37,420 nucleotides of DNA, from positions 1-37,420 of the IMG/VR virus record IMGVR_UViG_3300025308_000011; one strand, 5' to 3'. Origin of the DNA: a virus. Under the pieces are notes generated by a model that was given only the letters and a program-made list of their open reading frames with translations, was not told where the DNA came from and did not search any database. This document shows, in pieces, positions 4,554-37,420 of the stretch (within the stretch, counting starts at the first letter, position 1; each line of letters begins with the position of its first letter). The position numbers and the translations under genes were made by a program.

Positions 4554-5561
4554 TTAAACCTGAACGATGTTTTCAACGACGCAACCGGCGCGGAAGTCTT
4601 CGACCACATAGGCTTCGTTGCTGGATTCGTAGTTCTCGATCTGGTCGCGCTTGGCGTTGTCCAGAATCGTGCGGCGGCGCGAGCCTTCCTGCCAGTAGAT
4701 CGACAGGTTCTTCAGCGGCGTGATCATCAGCGTGTCTTCCGGGATGAACGGCACTTGAATGCCGGGCAGTCCGCCGATGCGCTTCTGGCTGACCAGCATG
4801 TCCATCACCAGCATGTCTTCCGGACGCTGGCTCTGGTTGATGATTGGGAAATACTTGTCGGCCATCAGCGCGGTGCCGCAGATCACGACCAGGCTCGGGT
4901 CTTGGCGGAATGTCGCGTCGACCAGATTATTGCGTGCGTCGAACACCAGCGCATCCAGATTGATGTAGTCGCCGGTCGCGCCAACATTCACTACGCCGGA
5001 AGCCGCCACCACTTCATCCATTACGCGGGCGGCAGCTTGTTCGCGGTAGTGCTGGATCCAGCCCTTGTTCACGTCCTGCAGCAGCGGGTTGGCGACGCGG
5101 TCGGTTGTCGCGGCGACCGATGTGCCGTTGAAGCCGATCATGATGCGATCCAGCGCCTGGCGCTTCAGGATCACATCGCGAATCTTGGTCTGGAATTCAG
5201 GGAATTTGGCCCAGGCATCCAGCACGGCATATTTTAGCGCGGTGTCGAATTCGGTCTTCTCGCAGCGGTACTTGTTGGAGTCCAGCGCGTGGATTTCGCG
5301 CGGCACGCGGTCTGCGTTGGCGGTATTGGTGCGGCCGGCGATGGTGCTTGCGGCATCCATGCCGAGCTTCTCGCCTTCCTGTTCCATCCTGCCGATCACA
5401 TTGATGGCTTGCAGGAAGTCGCTGGAGAGCTGGATGCGCTCTTCCAGTTTTTGCTGGATGGTCGGCGCGATGACGAATTTCTCCATCACCGATAGAACGC
5501 CGTTCAGCAGTGCCAGCTGTGCGGTGTATTCATTGAATTTGATTCGGGTATCGTTGCGCAT
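4554..5561 (-). CDS. N: Major capsid protein gpN
   Basis: A 335-residue major capsid protein of the P2 gpN family (P2: 357), HK97-like fold. Recognisable segments are MRNDTRIKFNEYTAQLA at the N-terminus, KYRCEKTEFDTALKYAVLDAW in the centre, and the C-terminal YESSNEAYVVEDF. ACGGAG precedes the ATG. In P2 the first residues of gpN are removed by gpO; a similar cut after the N-terminal helix is likely here but cannot be placed from sequence alone. Confidence 0.95.
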   Translation of the reverse strand: MRNDTRIKFNEYTAQLALLNGVLSVMEKFVIAPTIQQKLEERIQLSSDFLQAINVIGRMEQEGEKLGMDAASTIAGRTNTANADRVPREIHALDSNKYRCEKTEFDTALKYAVLDAWAKFPEFQTKIRDVILKRQALDRIMIGFNGTSVAATTDRVANPLLQDVNKGWIQHYREQAAARVMDEVVAASGVVNVGATGDYINLDALVFDARNNLVDATFRQDPSLVVICGTALMADKYFPIINQSQRPEDMLVMDMLVSQKRIGGLPGIQVPFIPEDTLMITPLKNLSIYWQEGSRRRTILDNAKRDQIENYESSNEAYVVEDFRAGCVVENIVQV

Positions 5562-5602
5562 GTTTTTCTCCGTGTTGTTCTAAAGGGGTGGGGTTGAGTT
5601 GC

Positions 5603-6448
5603 TTAGCAGTCTGTGGTTGGGACGCCGGTTCCACCAGTCGCGGAAGGCCGCCTTTCGGTGCCGTTTGGCGTGGCTTCAACAGTAGTCTTGAAGGCGGCAA
5701 AATCGGTGCGGTCTTTCTCTGCAGCCGTTGTCAGAGATTGGATTTTTTCACCCGATGCCTTGAGCGCTGCATCCATTGTGTTGAAGCGATCCAGCAGGTC
5801 TTTCTGGCTGGTGGCGACGGCTTCGACCGCTTGGCCGACATCGGTGAAGCGGGCTTCGTTGTCTTTTTCCCCCTTGCCGAGCAGGCTCTTCACCTTTGCG
5901 AATAGTGTTTCGCCCAGCGATGGGGTAGTGGCTTCCGGTTCGAATTCGATCACCACTTCCTGCGCGGCGGTGAAGAGGTTGTCCGGGTTTTGTTTGCGTG
6001 CTGCGAGCGGGCTGTTTGCGCCGGCTGTGGCAGAAAAGGCCAGCATGTCAGTGCCGAGGCTGGCAGGGGAGTCGGTTACTCCCAATCCGACCAGGTAGGC
6101 TTCGCCAGAGTCGGCGAACTTGGGGCTGAATTCGCACGAGGTGTAAATCTTTTGCTTGGCCTTGTTGATGGCAACCAGCGCGGGCAGCGGTTCGATTTGT
6201 GCGAACAGCGCGAGCTTCTTTACACCGTCGATATCGACTTCTTCCGCTTTCAACGCGGTCACATCGCCCATTGCGTCAAAAACATTCCCTGGCACGATGC
6301 CGCGAATGTGTTCAAGCCACACCCGGGCGCCATAGGTTGCGCGGTTGAAGTTCTTGGCGGCCTGCTCGATCCAGCTGCGCTCAATCTTGCGGCCATCGGT
6401 TGTTGCGCCTTCAAGGGCAACGCGGAAGAATTTGCTTACTGGTGGCAT
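5603..6448 (-). CDS. O: Capsid scaffold and maturation protease gpO
   Basis: A 281-residue gpO homologue (P2: 284). The N-terminal half is a serine protease. The residues in the positions of the P2 triad Asp19/His48/Ser107 are Asp18 (TTDGRKIE), His47 (VWLEHIRG) and Ser104 (KIYTSCEF). The C-terminal half (about 205-265) is a charged helical scaffold domain. The start at 6448 follows GAGGA and gives the family N-terminus MPPVSKFFRVALEGATTDG; the longer upstream frame runs through the promoter and is rejected. Confidence 0.93.
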   Translation of the reverse strand: MPPVSKFFRVALEGATTDGRKIERSWIEQAAKNFNRATYGARVWLEHIRGIVPGNVFDAMGDVTALKAEEVDIDGVKKLALFAQIEPLPALVAINKAKQKIYTSCEFSPKFADSGEAYLVGLGVTDSPASLGTDMLAFSATAGANSPLAARKQNPDNLFTAAQEVVIEFEPEATTPSLGETLFAKVKSLLGKGEKDNEARFTDVGQAVEAVATSQKDLLDRFNTMDAALKASGEKIQSLTTAAEKDRTDFAAFKTTVEATPNGTERRPSATGGTGVPTTDC

Positions 6449-6487
6449 GTCGTTTTCCTCGGTCGTTAATGGGTGAAATTTGGTGCG

Positions 6488-6596
6488 CCCATAGTCCGAG
6501 GGATGCGCCACTCGGCGCAACCGCGCCATGTTGTGTTCGCCGATTCCACAACTCGCCGGAATGAGTGCAATGCGGGCGCGCTGATAGCCTCCGCGC
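6488..6596. promoter_or_regulatory. Divergent late promoter region between O and P sharing one dyad
   Basis: One perfect dyad GTTGTG-N11-CACAAC (6530-6552) stands between the divergent O and P genes. On the minus strand a -10-like GACTAT (6496-6491) is correctly spaced and leads to a roughly 40-nt leader for O. On the plus strand the ATG of P lies 44 nt after the dyad, the same distance as between dyad and ATG at V. A symmetric activator site could serve both directions. No separate second dyad is visible here. Confidence 0.7.
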
Positions 6597-8351
6597 ATGA
6601 ATTCGAACACAGACAAAGATCCACGCTGGCAAGCCAGATCGCTTTACTGGCGAGGCTATCGCGTTGCGCGAATCAGCGAGTTGCTGCAAGTAAAGCCGGG
6701 CACAATCCATTCGTGGAAGCGCCGCGATAAATGGGACGATGCGGATCCTGTCGAGCGCTCCGAGTCCAGCCTCGAAGCACGGTTCATCATGCTGGTCGAA
6801 AAAGAGGATAAAGAGGGTAAGGACTACAAGGAAATCGACCTGCTCGGGCGGCAGATGGAGCGGCTGGCCCGGATAAAGAAATACGGTGGCAAGGGCGGCA
6901 ACGAAGCCGACCTGAATCCGAAGGTGGCGAACCGCAACAAGGGGCCGCGCAAGGCGGTGACCCGCAACGACTACAGCGAAGAGCAACAGGCGCGGCTCCA
7001 TGAAGCGTTCATGGATACCCAGTACGACTATCAGAAGAAGTGGTACCGCGCCGGGCTGGCGCATCGCATCCGGCAACTGTTGAAGTCCAGGCAGATCGGC
7101 GCGACCTGGTACTTCGCCCGCGAAGGGCTGGACGATGCGATGGTGACGGGGCGCAATCAGATTTATCTGTCAGCCTCGAAGGCGCAGGCGCATGTCTCGA
7201 AGAATTACATCAAGCAGTTCGCACGCGAATCCGCCGATATCGAGTTGCAGGGCGAGGTGATCGTGTTACCGAACGCCGCCGAACTGTATTTTCTCGGCAC
7301 CAACATCCGCACGGCGCAGAGCTACCACGGCAATCTGTATGTGGACGAAATATTCTGGATCCCGAAGTTTCTCGAATTCCGCAAGGTCACCTCCGGCATG
7401 GCGATGCACAAGCACTGGCGGCTGACCTATATGTCCACGCCGTCCACGCTGGCGCATGAGGCGCATGCGTTCTGGTCTGGAGCATTGTTCAACAAGGGCA
7501 GAGCGGAAGCGGAAAAGATCAAGCTGGATGTTACCCATGCCGGGCTGAAGGATGGGCGCTTGTGCGAAGACGGACACTGGCGGCAGATCGTGACGGTGAT
7601 GGATGCCGTCGCGGGCGGTTGCGATCTATTCGATATCGACCAGCTGCGCATGGACTACAGCCCGGAGGAATTCGCCAACCTGCTGATGTGCGAATTTATA
7701 GACGACGGGCAGAGCGTGTTCCCGCTCGCCGAGTTGCAGCGCTGCATGGTCGATTCGTGGGTGGTGTGGGACGACTTCAAGCCGTTCGCGCAGCGCCCGC
7801 TCGGCTATCGCGAGGTGTGGATCGGATACGACCCGTCGCATACCGGCGACAGCGCGGCGCTGGTGGTGATCGCGCCGCCTGCGGTGCCGGGTGGCAAGTT
7901 CCGCATGCTCGACCGCGTGCAATTCAAGGGTATGGATTTCGAAGAGCAGGCGCGGCGCATCGAAAAGGTGACGAAGGCCTACAACGTCACGTACATCGGC
8001 ATCGATACCACCGGCATCGGGCAGGGTGTGTTCCAGTTGGTCAAGCAGTTTTTCCCGGCTGCGCGCTCGTTCAACTATTCGCCGGACGTGAAGATGCGCC
8101 TGGTGATGAAGGCGAAGGACGTGATCACAAAGGGCAGGCTGGAGTTCGACGCAGGCTGGAATGACGTGGCCGCATCGTTCATGGCGATCAAAAAGACCAC
8201 CACGGCCAGCGGACGGCAGATCACCTTCGAGGCCGGACGCTCGGCGGAGATCAGCCACGCCGATCTGGCATGGGCAACGATGCACGCGCTCTCGAACGAA
8301 CCGCTCGAAGGCAGCAATTCCCGTAATTCATCCATCATGGAGTTCAGCTAA
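6597..8351 (+). CDS. P: Terminase large subunit gpP (ATPase/nuclease)
   Basis: A 584-residue large terminase (P2 gpP: 590) that drives DNA into the prohead. The N-terminus has an HTH-like segment (GYRVARISELLQVKPGTIHSW). The ATPase carries a Walker-A-like KSRQIGATW (about 163-171) and Walker B NLYVDE (Asp250-Glu251). The nuclease region shows IGYDPSHTGDSAAL (Asp412) and YIGIDTTGIG. The ATG has no Shine-Dalgarno and lies at the predicted transcription start, suggesting a leaderless mRNA. The stop overlaps the portal start (TAATG). Confidence 0.95.
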   Translation: MNSNTDKDPRWQARSLYWRGYRVARISELLQVKPGTIHSWKRRDKWDDADPVERSESSLEARFIMLVEKEDKEGKDYKEIDLLGRQMERLARIKKYGGKGGNEADLNPKVANRNKGPRKAVTRNDYSEEQQARLHEAFMDTQYDYQKKWYRAGLAHRIRQLLKSRQIGATWYFAREGLDDAMVTGRNQIYLSASKAQAHVSKNYIKQFARESADIELQGEVIVLPNAAELYFLGTNIRTAQSYHGNLYVDEIFWIPKFLEFRKVTSGMAMHKHWRLTYMSTPSTLAHEAHAFWSGALFNKGRAEAEKIKLDVTHAGLKDGRLCEDGHWRQIVTVMDAVAGGCDLFDIDQLRMDYSPEEFANLLMCEFIDDGQSVFPLAELQRCMVDSWVVWDDFKPFAQRPLGYREVWIGYDPSHTGDSAALVVIAPPAVPGGKFRMLDRVQFKGMDFEEQARRIEKVTKAYNVTYIGIDTTGIGQGVFQLVKQFFPAARSFNYSPDVKMRLVMKAKDVITKGRLEFDAGWNDVAASFMAIKKTTTASGRQITFEAGRSAEISHADLAWATMHALSNEPLEGSNSRNSSIMEFS

Positions 8352-9409
8352 TGAAAAATCATCGCAAATCGCGCAGCTTCGCTGCCAATCAAAACACACC
8401 GGCGCCGGAGACTTCCGCAACAGTTACCGCACCGGCCAAGTCCGAGGCTTTCACCTTCGGCGATCCGATTCCCTCGCTGGATCGGCGCGAGATCATGGAG
8501 TATCTCGAATGCGTCAAGATGGGCCGGTACTACGAGCCGCCGATTTCATGGGAAGGTCTGTCGAGATCGTTCCGCGCGGCGGTGCATCACTCCAGCGCGA
8601 TCTACGTCAAGCGCAACATCCTCGCCAGCTCGTTCATCCCGCACCGGCTGCTGACGCGCACCGCGTTCTCCGCGTGGGTGTTGGACTTCCTGGTGTTCGG
8701 CAATGGCTATCTCGAAAAGCGCAATTCGCGCATCGGCGCAGCGCTCAGCCTGGAGCATTCGCCCGCCAAGTACGTGCGGCGCGGCACCGATCTGGTGAAC
8801 TACTGGTTTGCGCAGACCTGGCTCACCGAGCACGAGTTCGCGCCCGGCACGATCTTCCACCTGCGCGAACCGGACATCAATCAGGAAGTGTACGGCCTGC
8901 CCGAATATCTCTCCGCGCTCAACTCCGCCTGGCTGAACGAGAGCGCGACGCTTTTTCGCCGCAAGTATTTCCAGAACGGCAGCCATGCAGGGTTCATCCT
9001 CTACATGACCGACGCGGCTCAAGAGCAGGGCGATGTGGACGCGCTGCGCAAAGCGCTCAAGGAAGCCAAAGGCCCCGGCAACTTCCGCAACTTGTTCATG
9101 TACGCTCCGAACGGCAAAAAGGACGGCATTCAGTTGATACCGGTCAGCGAGGTGGCTGCAAAAGATGAGTTCTTCAACATCAAGAACGTCACCCGTGACG
9201 ATCTGCTGGCCGCGCACAGAGTTCCGCCGCAGCTGATGGGAATCATTCCCGGCAACGTCGGCGGCTTCGGCGATGTGGAAAAGGCGGCTGGCGTGTTCTC
9301 GGTAAACGAGATCACCCCGCTGCAAGAGCGTTTCAAAGAGGTGAACGACTGGATCGGCGAGGAAGTGATCCGGTTCAAGCCCTACGAACTCGCCAAGAGT
9401 CCGGCTTAA
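8351..9409 (+). CDS. Q: Portal protein gpQ
   Basis: A 352-residue portal of the P2 gpQ family (P2: 344), the dodecameric ring at one capsid vertex through which DNA passes. Typical motifs are AFTFGDPIPSLDRREIMEYL, PISWEGLSRSFRAAVHHSS, DFLVFGNGYLEKRNS and the C-terminal RVPPQLMGIIPGNVGGFGD. It is cotranscribed with the terminase by a one-base overlap and is followed at once by a strong hairpin terminator. Confidence 0.95.
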   Translation: MKNHRKSRSFAANQNTPAPETSATVTAPAKSEAFTFGDPIPSLDRREIMEYLECVKMGRYYEPPISWEGLSRSFRAAVHHSSAIYVKRNILASSFIPHRLLTRTAFSAWVLDFLVFGNGYLEKRNSRIGAALSLEHSPAKYVRRGTDLVNYWFAQTWLTEHEFAPGTIFHLREPDINQEVYGLPEYLSALNSAWLNESATLFRRKYFQNGSHAGFILYMTDAAQEQGDVDALRKALKEAKGPGNFRNLFMYAPNGKKDGIQLIPVSEVAAKDEFFNIKNVTRDDLLAAHRVPPQLMGIIPGNVGGFGDVEKAAGVFSVNEITPLQERFKEVNDWIGEEVIRFKPYELAKSPA

Positions 9410-9685: not shown

Positions 9686-10285
9686 TCATTCCCCCTTACC
9701 GTTGGTTAGGGGAAGCGGCGCGCCGTTGATTTCTTCGAGCGTCTCGGTGGGGATGCCCAGGGCATTGTTGATCTGGCGCAATTGAAGGTGCAGGTTGCGT
9801 TGCTGCGCAGGGTGTATGGTGGCAACCAGCTCCGCCATCGTGTCGCGGCTCTGCCGCTGCAACGTCTCGACCTGCCGCATCGTCATGCCTTCCCAGATGC
9901 CTGCCGTCACGCCTGGCAGCGTGCGAATGTGCCTGGCGTCTTCGCGCAGCTCTTCCAGTAGCGCCTTCCTTTCTTCCCACAATGCCTTCTCGGCCTGGAT
10001 GAAATAGCGGCGAACTGCGCGCCCCTTGTCGTTGTTCTCCAGCATGGCGAGTTCCTTCGCCATGTCGAGGGTGAGGTGGTATTCGATGCTTGGGCGACCT
10101 CCGGTACTTTTCCCCGAAACGGGGGAAAAGTCCTCGCCTTCAACGAACCCGTATTGTTCGATTCTTTCTTTCAACCAGGTGGCAAAATCTCGGCCAACTT
10201 CAAGCCGCTCGTGCAGGTCGCGGGCATTGCAAAGCTGGCGTTCGCTGGTGTAGGTAAATACTTGAATCGGTGCGGTTGTAGTCAT
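9686..10285 (-). CDS. ant: AntA/AntB-type antirepressor
   Basis: A 199-residue protein whose first 90 residues are a clear AntA/AntB domain (CNARDLHERLEVGRDFATWL, IEQYGFVEGEDF, HLTLDMAKELAML). In P1 and related phages Ant inactivates the lysogenic repressor and triggers lytic growth. The C-terminal half (MTMRQVETLQRQSRDTMAEL, QQRNLHLQLRQINNALG) is helical and unassigned. GGAG precedes the start. About 150 bases upstream lies a C4-like antisense RNA, the arrangement known from P1/P7, so its translation is probably silenced in the lysogen. It is transcribed away from attP, at the prophage end opposite int. Confidence 0.88.
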   Translation of the reverse strand: MTTTAPIQVFTYTSERQLCNARDLHERLEVGRDFATWLKERIEQYGFVEGEDFSPVSGKSTGGRPSIEYHLTLDMAKELAMLENNDKGRAVRRYFIQAEKALWEERKALLEELREDARHIRTLPGVTAGIWEGMTMRQVETLQRQSRDTMAELVATIHPAQQRNLHLQLRQINNALGIPTETLEEINGAPLPLTNGKGE

Positions 10286-10342
10286 GGTGAATCTCCATTT
10301 TCTAGTTGATTAACCGCTCCCACTACTAAATGGGAGGCGGAA

Positions 10343-10371
10343 CTGTGTGGGTTAGTAGACCGGGAAAACAG
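10343..10371 (-). promoter_or_regulatory. Ant-leader target segment complementary to the C4-like RNA
   Basis: On the minus strand 10371-10349 reads CTGTTTTCCC-GGTCTACTAACCC, nearly the full reverse complement of the segment at 10490-10466 (two blocks of about 9-10 paired bases with a short mismatch). The overlapping bases 10343-10351 (CTGTGTGGG on +) can instead pair perfectly with 10395-10403 (CCCACACAG). A further hairpin with CTCCCA/TGGGAG arms (10317-10336) lies just before the ant ribosome site. These competing pairings suggest a switchable leader. Confidence 0.6.
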
Positions 10372-10435
10372 AAAACCGGCGAGCCTTGCGGCTCCCCACA
10401 CAGCCCGCCAAAACTGGCTTGCCGTGTGTACGGAC

Positions 10436-10685: not shown

Positions 10686-10904
10686 ACGTCCACCTCACCC
10701 CTCAGCGCGCGCTCGTGACCCCGCCACGCCCGGGCGCTTTATGGGTCGGTATTCGTGCAGGTGCATGGATCGCTGGAAGCCGCTGCCAGTGCGCGGGGCG
10801 TGCAGGGTAGAGGCTGGATGTATTGGTGCGCTCTGGTGCGCATAGCTTGCGCAACCGCGTGCACACACCATTTCAAGTAGACCGTGGAGCCGATTTTAGA
10901 ACGA

Positions 10905-11203
10905 GCATCGGAAAAGGGTGATTTTAGTAATTGCACCCAAAAAAGAAGCGCAACTCATTGATTAATATAAAGCATGTTTGTTACTTTTTGGGGTAATAAG
11001 TGGTAACTAAAAAGGTAATTATTTAGTAATATGCTGATTGTAAAAGGGTTTGTGTTTTTGAAAAGTGCCGGTTCAAAACGGTAACCTGATTACCTATATA
11101 TTACTAAAAAATTACCTTTTCTAATTATCTCCAGTATTGCGTACTGGTGCGGCTTTCAGGCTTGTTATTTTGCAATGTTACCAATATCACCTTTTTCCGA
11201 TGC
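10905..11203. repeat. AT-rich GGTRAY repeat field with nested inverted repeats (candidate origin)
   Basis: Nine copies of GGTRAY occur in 275 bases: forward at 10917, 10992, 11002, 11014 and 11080; reverse at 11089-11094, 11111-11116, 11177-11182 and 11186-11191. Four are part of a longer unit, GGTRAT-(4-7)-TAGTAA or TGGTAA followed by TTGCA or TATGC, arranged head-to-head. The outer arms (10905-10935 and 11171-11203) and inner arms (about 11006-11031 and 11099-11124) share nearly the same centre. The stretch is strikingly AT-rich compared with its surroundings and contains no gene. P4 origins carry GGTGAAC-type iterons bound by its primase-helicase, so this may be the origin used by the primase-helicase at 20928. 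Arm sites for Xis or a repressor field are alternatives. Confidence 0.6.
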
Positions 11204-11329
11204 GCCCTCAAATTTTAGCGCAACCCCTCGCGCATGACGTGCGTGCATGCGTGCGCGTATAGATATCGCCATGCATGCTGAGCGAGGTATCTGGGTGATC
11301 ATGTTGATGCGGCCAGGAGGGGAGCGGGT

Positions 11330-11363: not shown

Positions 11364-11383
11364 TGCGCGACTTTTGCGCGACT
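11364..11383 (+). repeat. Left pair of TGCGCGACT direct repeats (putative integrase arm sites)
   Basis: TGCGCGACT occurs at 11364-11372 and 11375-11383, 11 bases apart start to start. The same 9-mer, in the same orientation, is duplicated on the other side of attP. Tyrosine integrases of the lambda and P2 type bind such direct repeats on both arms of attP with their N-terminal domain. Confidence 0.7.
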
Positions 11384-11475: not shown

Positions 11476-11522
11476 GGCTACGAACCAAGGGGTCAGGAGT
11501 TCGAATCTCTTCGGGCGCACCA
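11476..11522 (+). other. attP: attP core: 3' part of a tRNA-Arg(ACG) gene
   Basis: The sequence from GGCTACGAACC through the T-arm GGAGTTCGAATCTC to GGGCGCACCA is the 3' portion of tRNA-Arg with anticodon ACG: anticodon loop CTACGAA, 3' half of the anticodon stem CCAAG, T-loop and acceptor ending in CCA. The 5' half of the tRNA is absent. Phages that integrate in tRNA genes carry exactly this part in attP so that the gene is restored after integration. The integrase gene ends 114 bases away. The left edge of identity with the host site cannot be set without the host sequence. Confidence 0.88.
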
Positions 11523-11569: not shown

Positions 11570-11589
11570 GCGCGACTTTTTGCGCGACT
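11569..11589 (+). repeat. Right pair of TGCGCGACT direct repeats (putative integrase arm sites)
   Basis: TGCGCGACT at 11569-11577 and 11581-11589, each preceded by a run of T, 12 bases apart start to start. Together with 11364-11383 this gives two sites on each side of the core in the same orientation, typical of an arm-binding integrase. Confidence 0.7.
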
Positions 11590-11635: not shown

Positions 11636-12889
11636 CTACCCGTTGACCACCCGCAGCAGCGTCCTGGTGCCCTGCCGGTCGAGAGCCAGGTTTGATAGTT
11701 TGATGAGCCTGCCGATATCGGCACTGGCGTAGTGCTCGGGGATTGAGGCGGATTTGTGGCCCAACAGGGCGTTGCGGTCTTCCTGTGGGACGCCGGCGAG
11801 ACGCAGGCGGCTGGCGTAGGTGTGGCGCAGGTCGTGGATGCGGATGTTGTGGAATCCGGGCATGGCCGTGGCCACGAACTGTTTCAGATCGTCGGTGAGC
11901 AGGATCCCGCACTGCCCATCCTTCAGCAGCTCTTCCGGGATGGTTTTGCCGGCCGCTGTGTACAGTTGCATCGCAGCGCGGATCCGGGCTTTATCCCATG
12001 CCGAGTTGTTCATGGTGCCGACGCGGTGCCCGTTGTAGGTGAAAACGAAGTCGAACTCAGTGTCTTTGCCAGGCTTCTTGATGTATTCGGTCATCCCGGC
12101 ATCGTTGAGGCGCTTTGTCCTGATTGCCCGCTGCGCCTCAACGATGCGCCACGCTGCATCATTAAGGATGGCGACGTGGCTCACGCCGGTCTTGTAATCG
12201 TCTGCCGGAATGACAAACACGCTGCGACCCACTTCCGGTACCGGCACCTCCCACGCCCAGCGCAAGCCGCACACATTCTCGTCGCGCAGGCCGGTGTTTA
12301 CATCGAACAGCGCCATCGCCTGTAGATGCGCCGGAAGCTCTGGGAACAATACATCTTGCTCTTCCCAACTCAACGGGTGCGGCGGACGGCGGTTCTCCTG
12401 CTCCATGGTGATCAGCGGCGGCGCGGTGAGCAGCAACGGATGGCCGTTATCATCTCGCCATGCGCGCGCGGCGCGGTTGAGGATGGTGCGGACAACTTCA
12501 AGGGTGCGATTGATTGTGGTGGGGCTTACGCCATCGAGGCGGCGGGCATCTTTGAATTCCTCCAGCGTGGCGTCATGAATGCGTCCGATCTCCATGCTGC
12601 CGATGAAGGGCAGCAGCAGCAGGACATGCCAGGCGAGGACTTCTGCGGAGCGCTTGTTCTGGGATTCGGTCAGGTACCGTGACGCGCAATCTGCGAACAC
12701 ATGGCGATTGCATCGTTGACGATGTTTGTTCTCTGAGAGTTGGCGGATTTCTTCGGCGAGCCGTTGCTCGGCTTCGTCCTGAGAGACTTTGCCGAGCCGG
12801 ATGAAGATGCGCTCTCCCTTGTGGACCTTATTGAGGGTTCGGGTTCCGTCCTTATCGAGCGAAATCCCGCGTGTTCGGGTTGTTGCCAT
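11636..12889 (-). CDS. int: Tyrosine-recombinase integrase
   Basis: A 417-residue integrase that recombines attP with the host tRNA-Arg gene. The catalytic residues are visible: Arg202 (NTGLRDENVCGLRW), His352 and Arg355 (IHDLRHTYASRL), His378 (LLGHKS) and Tyr387 (PEHYAS). The N-terminal 65 residues would hold the arm-binding domain, followed by a core-binding SAM-like domain (about 65-160). The start has GGAG 8 bases upstream. Unlike P2, where int follows the repressor, this gene is the last one of the long early operon and its first 220 bases overlap the excisionase-like frame. Confidence 0.93.
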   Translation of the reverse strand: MATTRTRGISLDKDGTRTLNKVHKGERIFIRLGKVSQDEAEQRLAEEIRQLSENKHRQRCNRHVFADCASRYLTESQNKRSAEVLAWHVLLLLPFIGSMEIGRIHDATLEEFKDARRLDGVSPTTINRTLEVVRTILNRAARAWRDDNGHPLLLTAPPLITMEQENRRPPHPLSWEEQDVLFPELPAHLQAMALFDVNTGLRDENVCGLRWAWEVPVPEVGRSVFVIPADDYKTGVSHVAILNDAAWRIVEAQRAIRTKRLNDAGMTEYIKKPGKDTEFDFVFTYNGHRVGTMNNSAWDKARIRAAMQLYTAAGKTIPEELLKDGQCGILLTDDLKQFVATAMPGFHNIRIHDLRHTYASRLRLAGVPQEDRNALLGHKSASIPEHYASADIGRLIKLSNLALDRQGTRTLLRVVNG

Positions 12890-20753: not shown

Positions 20754-20938
20754 TTCGTCTTCCTCCCTCTGGCGGCCATGATCATGGCCATGCGTTTTAA
20801 TGCGGTGCGGAAATGCGGCAGCTGCATCGCCTCTTCAAAACTCTGTTGCAACCGGCATTCCTGGTGTGCTTTGCGCAACAGGTTTTCCGGCGGTTCGATC
20901 GTCCCGATCGGTAAAGCAAGTTGATGACTACGTGCCAT
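20750..20938 (-). CDS. 62-residue hypothetical early protein
   Basis: A small basic protein starting MARSHQLALPIGTIEPPENL, with GGAGG 7 bases before the ATG, which places the start at 20938. It overlaps the end of the primase-helicase by 11 bases. It ends in MAMIMAARGRKTK. Function unknown. Confidence 0.68.
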   Translation of the reverse strand: MARSHQLALPIGTIEPPENLLRKAHQECRLQQSFEEAMQLPHFRTALKRMAMIMAARGRKTK

Positions 20939-23648
20939 GATCTCGACCTCCCTTCGTTGATGGATTTTCAAATACCCAGCACTTCACTGTTTCCGTTCTG
21001 GCCGGTGCATCGGGTGCCTTGCGTTTGTTGTAGACCGAATTGATGACGCTGTTCACCGGCTTGATGTCGAGGAACTTGCGCGCGCGGCTGGTCTTGAGCA
21101 GCTTCTTCAGTTCGCTCAGTTCCGGCAGTTGCTGGCGGAAATCGGCGGCGACGGCGATGAAGTGGTTGAGGTTGATGGCGATCTGCTGATCGCCCTTGCG
21201 CGCGTGGTTCAGGCGCGGCATGTCCTCGTCGCCGTTCAGGAAGTCGTAGGTCTCCCAGAAGGCCTGCACGCTCTGGTGGTCGGCATTGATGGCCTCCTGC
21301 CGTTCGGCAGTCATGTCGGCGATGAAGGCATGCGTCTGCTCGCGCTCTGCGGTGCCGAGCGGGATCACATGGGTCAGCGCATCGACCAGCGCCGCCAGCA
21401 TCGCGTGGTTCTTTACGATGCGCCGGTTGCGCACGCCGTTGATCTTGAGCAGCTCTTTTTCGTGGTGATGCACGCGCTCTTCGAAGGTGGCGAGAATCTT
21501 CTTTTCCGCCAGCGTTGCCTTGAGCGCGAATCCCGACAGGCTTTCCACGCCGATCTGGCCGAGCGCGTCCGCCGCCGATTTCGATTCCGGCGTGTGCGAA
21601 GCGAGGTCGAAGCCGATGTGGACGATCCGCTGCATGATCGCGTCCGAAGCATTTACCGGCGCGTTCTGGCTGATCACCAGCGCACCACGGAAGGGCGGCT
21701 CGTAGGTCTCGTTGCCGCTGTTCTTCACGCCCCGGCTGTACACGCTGCGCCCGTTGTAAAGCGGCTTGAGTTCGTCCCAGTCGAAACCCTTCTGCTTGAC
21801 GCGATCCTCTTCGCCACGGTCGCCCTCGATCAGCACAACCGGCATGTTCGACACCTGCGCGAAGTTGCGCGCCCGCGCCGCCATCGTGGATTTGCTCGGG
21901 TCGAAGCCCTCATAGTCGGAGCGGCCGGCAAGCCGCCAGAGGAATTCGATCAGCGTCGATTTACCTGCGCCGGGTTCGCCGACCAGCTCGATGAACGGGA
22001 AAGATTTGTGCTTGTCGCGGATCTGCTCGGCGAACAGGCTGCCGAGCCAGAAGGCAAGCGCGGCGATGCCCTTGTGGTGGTAACACTGCCACAGCAGGCC
22101 GAGCCATTCGCTGGTGAAGTCCTTGAGGTCGGTATTGATCGACAGATCCACCGAGCGGTTGAGGCTCTTGATCGACACCCGCCCGACATCAAAGAAGTCC
22201 TCGTCGTTGAGCGGCACGATCCTGCCGTCGCTCACCGCCACATCGTGGAATACCCATGCGGCGTGTTCCTTGCTGTAGCCGATGAAGTCGATGGTCTGCA
22301 CGGTCTTGATATTAAATAGTTGTCTTTGCATGAGTCGATCCAGATGGCCGTTGTTGCCGGTGAACACCGCACCAGGTGCGATGGAGAGCAGGCGCTTCTT
22401 GAATTCGCCCGACGAGGTAAGCATCGATCCGGTGAAGGTGTTCTTGATCGACTGGCCGTCGTGCGGGAAGTCCACGCGCAGGTAGTACCAGCTCTCGTCG
22501 GTGAGCAGGTTGGCCTGGTAATACAGCGCGGTGAAGAAACAGTTGGCGATCTCGCGCAGGGTGTGCGATTCGAGCATGGCGCGTTCGCGCAGCTCGTCGT
22601 CGGTCAGATGGCCGTCCGTCACCTTGGCGATCTCTTCCTTGGCCTTGGTGAACTTCTCCAGACTCAGTTCAAACCAGAACATGCGGCTATCGAAGCCGAA
22701 GTAGAACGAGTGATATTCCTTGCCGTGGTTGAACATCAGCAGCGCTTTATCGTGTGCCGATTTCGCCATCAGCAATGCGCCGCTGTAGAGCGCCTCGTCC
22801 AGCGTCTTCCGGTTCAGCCGGTCGCGCTGGTGCAGCTCGTTCCAGTCCAGCTTGGTCTTGCCGTCTTCCGGCGGCTGTGCGGCGACGGCTTCCCAGCCAT
22901 CTTCTTTACTGCGGTCAACCCACTTGCGGGTGAACATGGCACCGGCCTTGCCGGTGTCGAGCGCCCATACCAGCTTGGGGCGCTTCCTTTCTGTAGCGGC
23001 GCACTGCGCGGCCAGCGCCTTGAGCGCCTTGTCCGGGTAATTGTTGCAACTCAGCGCGCTGGCGCTGGCGATGTCGTGGTGCAGCAGCGCGGTGCTATCG
23101 AAGATGCCCTCGGTGATCCATATCTCTTTGACCGATTCCGCCGCCAGATCCACACCGGGCGCAACCCACCAGGTGCCCTTGTAGTCGCCCTTGAACGTGG
23201 CCTTGCGCTTGCCGAAGCGCTGCGGCTGGTCGATGATGCGTTCCCAATAGCCGATGCCGGGCAGGGGGAAGCGCACCGTCGCCGAGCCGATCTTCAGCAC
23301 CGGGTCGAAATAACTTTCCTGCTCGTACCAGCCCTTGACCTTGGCCAGATCGAAGCCGCGACCGTCGCGCATGTAGGCATCGGCGGCGGCGTTCGGGTCT
23401 GCCGGCGTCACCGGATGGCGTTCACTCCATTTGCTGAACAGATCCTCATACAGTTCTTTGACGTGATATTCCGCACCGCACTTATTCAAGCGCCCGCAGC
23501 GCAGCACCCAGGGCTTTTCTGCGCTGGTGTACAACTCCTTCTTTTTGCAGGAAGGGCACTCGCCGCCGCGCAGCCATTCACCGCTGCGCTTGAACGCAAA
23601 GTCCCTGTCGAGCTGGCGGGTGATGTCGGAATGCAGTCGTGGGTTCAT
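20928..23648 (-). CDS. Zinc-finger TOPRIM primase fused to a helicase
   Basis: A 906-residue replication protein. An N-terminal zinc motif (Cys31, Cys34, Cys51, Cys57: GECPSCKKK, RCGRLNKCG) is followed by a TOPRIM region (EIWITEGIFDSTALL with Glu180; KLVWALDTGKAG with Asp231) and a P-loop ATPase with Walker A GEPGAGKST (557-565) and Walker B PVVLIEGDR (603-611). It probably primes and unwinds at the phage origin, as P4 alpha does. No P2 gpA-type nuclease is encoded, so it replaces rolling-circle initiation. I prefer the start MNPRLHSDI at 23648; an upstream ATG at 23687 sits within the preceding hairpin. Confidence 0.88.
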   Translation of the reverse strand: MNPRLHSDITRQLDRDFAFKRSGEWLRGGECPSCKKKELYTSAEKPWVLRCGRLNKCGAEYHVKELYEDLFSKWSERHPVTPADPNAAADAYMRDGRGFDLAKVKGWYEQESYFDPVLKIGSATVRFPLPGIGYWERIIDQPQRFGKRKATFKGDYKGTWWVAPGVDLAAESVKEIWITEGIFDSTALLHHDIASASALSCNNYPDKALKALAAQCAATERKRPKLVWALDTGKAGAMFTRKWVDRSKEDGWEAVAAQPPEDGKTKLDWNELHQRDRLNRKTLDEALYSGALLMAKSAHDKALLMFNHGKEYHSFYFGFDSRMFWFELSLEKFTKAKEEIAKVTDGHLTDDELRERAMLESHTLREIANCFFTALYYQANLLTDESWYYLRVDFPHDGQSIKNTFTGSMLTSSGEFKKRLLSIAPGAVFTGNNGHLDRLMQRQLFNIKTVQTIDFIGYSKEHAAWVFHDVAVSDGRIVPLNDEDFFDVGRVSIKSLNRSVDLSINTDLKDFTSEWLGLLWQCYHHKGIAALAFWLGSLFAEQIRDKHKSFPFIELVGEPGAGKSTLIEFLWRLAGRSDYEGFDPSKSTMAARARNFAQVSNMPVVLIEGDRGEEDRVKQKGFDWDELKPLYNGRSVYSRGVKNSGNETYEPPFRGALVISQNAPVNASDAIMQRIVHIGFDLASHTPESKSAADALGQIGVESLSGFALKATLAEKKILATFEERVHHHEKELLKINGVRNRRIVKNHAMLAALVDALTHVIPLGTAEREQTHAFIADMTAERQEAINADHQSVQAFWETYDFLNGDEDMPRLNHARKGDQQIAINLNHFIAVAADFRQQLPELSELKKLLKTSRARKFLDIKPVNSVINSVYNKRKAPDAPARTETVKCWVFENPSTKGGRDHGT

Positions 23649-23669
23649 CTGTGTCTTCAGTAAATTTGG

Positions 23670-23704
23670 GTAAAAAAATCCCGCCATGCCTCTTTCAAGG
23701 CATG
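23670..23704 (-). terminator. Terminator-like hairpin between ogr and the primase
   Basis: Arms CATGCCT (23685-23691) and AGGCATG (23698-23704), followed on the minus strand by GCGGGA and seven T. It could attenuate read-through from ogr into the replication genes. Stem strength is moderate. Confidence 0.45.
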
Positions 23705-37106: not shown

Positions 37107-37420
37107 TGCGGTGCTCCGGTGTTGTCGCCGCCCGGCGTGATTCCGCCGTGCACGTGGTTGACCAGGCTGATGCCGCTGGCAGTCACGTCTCCCTCTACGG
37201 TGATGTTGCCGGTGAAGTGGACGGACGGGCAATCGATGGTAACTTGCGTGGACGCCTGCACCAGTGCGGTCTGGATGCCGACGGCTTCCAGCGCGCCGGT
37301 GACGTGGTTGTAAGCGATGCGCGCGCCGTCCGGGTAATCGGTGATGTGTTCGTCGCCGCTGCTGCTCGGTGCCGGGTGCGTATTTGAAAATAGCCCTGTG
37401 AGCACGACGCCGGCGGCAAG
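37103..37420 (-). CDS. V: Baseplate spike gpV, C-terminal part (continues at 351-13)
   Basis: The C-terminal part of gpV: LTGLFSNTHPAPSSSGDEHI, IAYNHVTGALEAVG, then the beta-helix STQVTIDCPSVHFTGNITVE, and a tip with NHVHGGITPGGDNTGAPQ. The His-x-His (HVH) corresponds to the iron-binding tip motif of P2-type spikes. The frame is continuous with the N-terminal part at the other contig end. Operon order V-W-J-I-H follows by overlapping stops and starts. Confidence 0.93.
   Translation of the reverse strand, partial: LAAGVVLTGLFSNTHPAPSSSGDEHITDYPDGARIAYNHVTGALEAVGIQTALVQASTQVTIDCPSVHFTGNITVEGDVTASGISLVNHVHGGITPGGDNTGAPQ
37295..37420. repeat. Terminal direct repeat, right copy
   Basis: Identical to 13-138. 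It marks the overlap where the linear sequence closes into a circle of about 37,282 bp. Confidence 0.9.

Follow-up and report, generated by a model that had tools for sequence, protein, structure and literature searches.

Among the replication systems that come closest to the locus described here, the SaPI and Cch elements rely on a self-loading AAA+ helicase that binds short iterons via its C-terminal domain, and their origins often lie directly downstream of the gene for this helicase (PMC7581432). The origin iterons of SaPI Rep are read by its C-terminal domain, a property demonstrated for Cch2 using that domain in isolation (PMC7581432). In phage P4, zinc, toprim, and helicase parts are united in one polypeptide, the alpha protein, and GGTGAACA iterons occur in both orientations at a spacing of about 10 bp within two separated elements, ori and crr, the latter of which lies between attP and alpha in the P4 record. 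P2-like phages are the textbook rolling-circle phages, and in the P2 record the nick site falls within gene A.

The window analyzed here, a viral record of 37,420 nucleotides (IMGVR_UViG_3300025308_000011), holds a P2-like phage of the Peduoviridae, near Citexvirus. Its ends repeat (8–138 versus 37290–37420, 98%), so the record is circular. Terminase, portal, scaffold, and capsid genes (4554–9409) together with tail genes (26.5–37 kb) represent a P2-like gene content, and both the structural gene set and the cos type are shared with P2. Unlike P2, however, the window encodes no gpA as judged by PF05840, in agreement with a first-pass annotation of this DNA, and it carries a field of mirrored iterons that P2 lacks. 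We consider it very likely that this field is the phage's theta replication origin, and that its 919-residue primase-helicase (20928–23687) combines the roles of origin binder, helicase, and primase. No earlier description or annotation of this origin was found in the PMC literature searched.

The mirrored iteron field and its surroundings

Exactly nine GGTRAY motifs occupy the 275 bp between 10917 and 11191, the count that the first-pass annotation had reported, and they lie within an island of 34% GC in a record of 60% GC. The runner-up 300-bp segment of the record holds five. Dinucleotide shuffles of the field contain 0.60 motifs on average (about 0.6 expected) and none of 20,000 reaches nine, although, if the hexamer is picked post hoc, shuffles of this AT-rich stretch can match such counts with another degenerate word; chance is therefore ruled out mainly by conservation, which is considered below.

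When AGTAAT variants are counted along with GGTRAY, five plus-strand and five minus-strand sites form five mirrored pairs, with first bases at 10917/11191, 10926/11182, 10992/11116, 11002/11105, and 11014/11094. Because the two positions of each pair sum to 22107–22108, all five share a single dyad at 11054 (within one base), and the nested head-to-head pairing that had been proposed is thereby borne out. The spacing of the iterons, 9 bp in the outer doublets and 10–12 bp in the inner sets, is near one helical turn. A profile of the field (nhmmer) aligns over model positions 2–306 with an E-value of 1.2e-64, accompanied by a partial reverse-strand match, and delimits the element to 10903–11207. 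The extent originally assigned, 10905–11203, was correct as to the location of the field and slightly too short.

An inverted-repeat search recovers the same arms, at 80% complementarity over 35 nt and 96% over 23 nt, and inverted repeats nested in this manner might be taken to mean that the field is a structured RNA when transcribed, or one long hairpin. The chance of this is negligible in our estimate. The consensus fold of 31 fields contains only 17 pairs (−10.9 kcal/mol, covariation term −0.64), Rfam yields no match except the neighboring C4 RNA, and since the iterons are mirrored, the complementarity of the arms needs no RNA fold. Attribution of the inverted repeats to a host chromosome or mobile element was likewise rejected, given that the record is circular and the field is conserved at one place in phages. 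The GC skew profile of the record exhibits no simple two-arm pattern.

Proceeding from the portal, the window presents an anti-repressor gene, C4 RNA, cos, the field, the attP region, and the integrase, with the primase-helicase located 8 kb further (Table 1). About 170 bp separate the field from the P2-type cos, and about 160 bp from the closest attP arm site. In the phiCTX record, cosR and the attP core are annotated on the two flanks of the field, cosR being placed as cos is in the window. DnaA boxes are present in the 400 bp upstream of only 2 of 47 fields and do not constitute a feature of the field.

Two neighboring elements deserve mention in their own right. The C4 antisense RNA (10330–10415, minus strand; RF01695, 69 bits) sits directly upstream of the anti-repressor gene (9686–10285, minus strand), an arrangement as in the P1/P7 immunity system, found here in a P2-like phage beside cos. 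On the attP side, an alternating purine-pyrimidine tract begins 12–23 bp outside the field; the bases themselves vary, and in 21 of 44 phages the tract is longer than in shuffles (p ≤ 0.01). Such a tract might favor Z-DNA or absorb supercoiling at the origin.

Table 1. Positions of the field, its component iterons, adjacent elements, and the proposed initiator gene in the window
Feature	Position	Strand	Basis
Palindromic iteron array, proposed replication origin, dyad 11054	10903..11207	.	nhmmer profile, dyad, consensus of 47 fields
Left outer iteron doublet, 9 bp apart (GGTGAT, AGTAAT)	10917..10931	+	
Conserved opposed iteron just outside inner set; same position in Dobby	10980..10985	-	
Left inner iteron set, 10–12 bp spacing (10992, 11002, 11014, weak 11025)	10992..11030	+	
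AT-rich centre with conserved TTGATT; proposed melting region (putative function)	11031..11079	.	sequence, conserved columns
Asymmetric conserved iteron that faces right inner set	11080..11085	+	
Right inner iteron set, three iterons 11 bp apart	11089..11116	-	
Right outer iteron doublet, 9 bp apart	11177..11191	-	
Predicted cos, cohesive end 5'-GGCGTGGCGGGGTCACGAG-3'	10712..10730	-	17/19 bases identical to Smp131 cos (PMC3931495)
Alternating purine-pyrimidine tract beside field	11229..11278	.	
Putative Int arm sites, GCGCGACT twice, attP arm	11365..11383	+	
Putative attP core, tRNA 3'-end-like; same stretch in G008	11479..11522	+	
Putative Int arm sites, GCGCGACT twice, other attP arm	11570..11589	+	
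Tyrosine integrase	11636..12889	-	phrog_1 E 2.2e-33; PF00589
Primase-helicase, proposed initiator	20928..23687	-	phrog_1139, 1168 bits; DnaG/T7 primase and Cch/SaPIbov1 Rep helicase folds
Primase-helicase C-terminal domain, residues 803–911, proposed winged-helix iteron reader	20955..21281	-	

Conservation of the field and its association with a primase family

Direct blastn of the field against phages gave no match; relatives were gathered instead through the primase together with the field pattern, and named phages were added. Comparison across related phages and prophages, the latter suggested as a check by the first-pass annotation, reveals an element of 292–308 bp kept in 47 distinct full copies, including those of Dobby, Smp131, Halomonas phage 4908, and phiCTX. 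Two pattern matches in genomes (L225 and L228) proved not to be fields. The hosts of field-bearing phages and prophages comprise alpha-, beta-, and gammaproteobacteria, and a scan of named genomes adds prophages of Dyella, Halomonas, Pseudomonas, Ralstonia, Pseudoalteromonas, Edwardsiella, Methylophilus, and one alphaproteobacterial assembly. Among the 47 fields, conserved columns are mostly limited to the iterons, and the consensus contains twelve strong iterons: a pair of opposed outer doublets, a pair of inner sets, and two extras, at 10981 and 11080, which disrupt the symmetry.

The primase-helicase family, phrog_1139, is encoded by every field-bearing virus record that reaches 30 kb (17 of 17). 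In 17 field-bearing genomes, this family is found on the contig of the field in 11 cases and on another contig in one, while the remaining five are truncated contigs (G060, G063, and G065) or prophage remnants (G059 and G074). G021 bears a field without the primase and holds the late-gene half of a phage only. Of 30 records, 29 lack PF05840, the mark of gpA. The exception is G001, whose PF05840 match is located about 3 kb past the field, in the direction away from the phage genes, and could be part of a second element. None of 80 P2 gpA loci contains the field, a count worth little more than one case as these loci are close relatives, and gpA-type controls outside E. coli are few. The field is also absent from Acidovorax phage Alfacinha3, which has gpA and shares neighboring gene types with the window. 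Taken as comparative evidence, the co-occurrence, the absence from gpA phages, and the recurrence of the same layout with other words (described below) support the earlier proposal that the field serves as origin for the phage's own primase-helicase.

The company that the field keeps on its other side could be read differently, as that of a packaging element, that is, a terminase-binding or cos-enhancing site beside cos. A cos-like sequence occurs no more than 260 bp away in 41 of the 47 fields scanned, and also in Smp131, across the start of its record. Because the distance between field and cos is nearly fixed in most members (163–180 bp), a packaging role keeps some weight, but we regard it as unlikely. 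Fields exist with no cos-like sequence in the upstream DNA examined (L102, L106, L075, and L108), L100 has its cos-like sequence 1.1 kb from the field, and gpA-type P2-like phages have cos without the field. Furthermore, in phi3, phita81A/2, and PaBSM the primase gene is directly followed by the field, which is therefore separated from cos and attP and tied to the primase, much as SaPI origins follow rep (PMC7581432).

The same placement in phi3 and phita81A/2 argues against the notion that the field provides accessory sites for Int/Xis recombination at attP, even though an attP core is found within about 300 bp of the field in the window, phiCTX, and relatives. The core of the window is flanked on each side by separate direct repeats (GCGCGACT, twice), and Dobby has its own ACGTAAC repeats near attP. 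Moreover, the window integrase has no close relative on any viral contig searched, whereas the field is common to dozens. A recombinational role is thus very improbable in our judgment, and we retain the origin as the preferred reading.

A Citexvirus-like genome that contains the field (L112:199-524), the primase, and an integrase has been deposited as a circular Pseudomonas aeruginosa plasmid, pPHPALO552 (CP075758), and could represent either a plasmid-like state or phage DNA in free form. Its filing as a plasmid would fit a partition or incompatibility site of such a state, an explanation to which we assign very little probability: no ParAB pair was found among the window genes scanned, the field tracks the primase, and pPHPALO552 itself has an integrase gene. 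A further record of note is G074, where a well-kept field (G074:C142:8331-8630, L255) adjoins sequence resembling cos and a tRNA as well as an Abi_alpha gene. No P2-like genes were detected on this contig, apparently a prophage remnant that has retained the origin end.

The primase-helicase and a proposed course of initiation

The full-length model of the primase-helicase is of modest confidence (pLDDT 68.9). Within it, residues 95–330 match the DnaG and T7 gp4 primases, and residues 325–912 match Cch (5dgk; Z 15.4 over 414 residues, rmsd 7.0) and SaPIbov1 Rep (8tch; Z 11.7). As modeled, therefore, the phage protein resembles SaPIbov1 Rep and the SCCmec proteins Cch and Cch2 in its helicase fold, and the window combines a predicted helicase of the Cch/Rep fold with a short word repeated in an AT-rich stretch, as in SaPI/Cch-type iteron origins. 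Three differences set the phage system apart: a DnaG/T7-type toprim primase is joined to the helicase in a single polypeptide, the iterons are mirrored on an exact dyad over about 300 bp, and the carrier is a P2-like phage in which, for most members, cos and attP lie beside the origin.

The protein had been likened to P4 alpha, and the GGTGAAC-type repeats of the P4 origin had been cited alongside the field. The former parallel holds for the overall plan (zinc, toprim, AAA+, and a C-terminal DNA-binding domain, putative in the phage protein), but sequence similarity to alpha is limited to the toprim region, and the helicase is predicted to fold like SCCmec Cch and SaPIbov1 Rep. Alpha has D5_N and Pox_D5, neither of which is present in 12 members of the phage primase family. 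The latter parallel fails, in that the word of the field is GGTRAY and not GGTGAACA, while the use of both orientations at about 10 bp spacing is common to the two. In contrast to the separated ori and crr of P4, the window possesses one GGTRAY cluster (nine motifs, five in the next). Lacking GGTGAACA repeats, an alpha/D5-family initiator, and two cis elements, the field is not a P4 origin; it differs in its word, in the class of helicase, and in being single.

By function, nonetheless, the field most likely works like the P4 and SaPI origins. Judged from its sequence, it is most likely an iteron origin of palindromic layout, used by an initiator, helicase, and primase united in one protein, and sequence and predicted fold together would assign it to the broader group of iteron origins that self-loading helicases serve. 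From the array and its dyad, the kept length and layout, the association with a primase family, and the change of word while the layout stays constant, we infer the following course of initiation. The C-terminal domain of the protein would bind the GGTRAY iterons, whose two mirrored groups, each made up of an outer doublet plus an inner set, would expose their sites on one face of the helix. In head-to-head orientation, two helicase rings would form on these groups around the AT-rich centre (11054); the centre would then melt, and the rings would travel outwards with both forks primed, resulting in bidirectional theta replication.

A branch of the P2-like phages that includes Smp131 and, by its field, phiCTX appears to have swapped gpA for a one-protein initiator and a compact origin. 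Because the profile finds the field in alpha-, beta-, and gammaproteobacterial phages, origins can be marked in many genomes. The mirrored origin would also provide a system for asking how two helicase rings get placed.

Varying words and a candidate specificity residue

A 7-mer repeat scan that is blind to GGTRAY ranks the known ori and crr of P4 first and second, and ranks a repeat field first in Dobby, Smp131, ev239, phi3, phita81A/2, PaBSM, Mae-JY29, and PfPro; the window's own field was missed because its word is degenerate. A range of words is in use among the more distant members of this primase family, namely, CGGAACA in phi3 and phita81A/2, TGGAAGG in PaBSM, GTGGACR in ev239, CTGACA in PfPro, GGAAYAT in Mae-JY29, and GGTTAC in 2F_1. 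The spacings of phi3 (YSGAACA) and PaBSM (TGGAAGG) are nearly identical (17/18, 10, 11, 78/80, 10, 8, 69/70, and 9), and an outer doublet at 9 bp with an opposed site at 7–8 bp recurs in the window and Dobby.

Modeled alone, the C-terminal domain (residues 803–911) reaches a pLDDT of 85.6, and its best structural matches, both weak (Z < 6), are the oriT-binding winged-helix protein TcpK (5vfx, Z 5.8) and, level with it, SaPI Rep (8tch, Z 5.7). Foldseek returned nothing for this domain at E ≤ 0.001; the absence of the P4 origin-binding domain from its listing excludes nothing. Residue 879 immediately precedes the predicted third helix. Most GGTAAY users have N there, Dobby has D, and two phages whose fields have drifted to AGTAAT have Y. 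The position is occupied by R where the word is CGGAACA, GTGGACR, or GGTTAC, by E where it is CTGACA, and by H where it is TGGAAGG, while N is used again with GGAAYAT. This correlation between word and residue, which comprises few independent cases, is suggestive and makes N879 a candidate specificity position. As identity across the whole C-terminal domain does not sort by word, GGTAAY users not being separated from the others and Dobby being closest to PfPro, only position 879 is proposed.

These relationships hint at a modular origin code, in which a fixed mirrored scaffold of about 300 bp accepts exchangeable words and a C-terminal residue (N879 here) changes in step, an idea that we put forward tentatively and hold to be possible rather than probable. 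If true, the relatives would form a natural series of orthogonal phage replicons, in each of which one protein does recognition, loading, unwinding, and priming. Word swaps on a constant layout make the recognition rule testable, and the varying words on a constant scaffold supply natural pairs for studying how such proteins read DNA.

In several field-bearing records (G053, G030, G037, G049, G038, and G027) the match to the primase gene contains in-frame stops or broken frames, which may reflect decay or sequencing error. Two phages, both of which encode the full protein, contain a second, partial match confined to the C-terminal domain (G036:C1:22316-22615 and G048:C1:36025-36288), possibly a stand-alone copy of the proposed iteron-reading domain.
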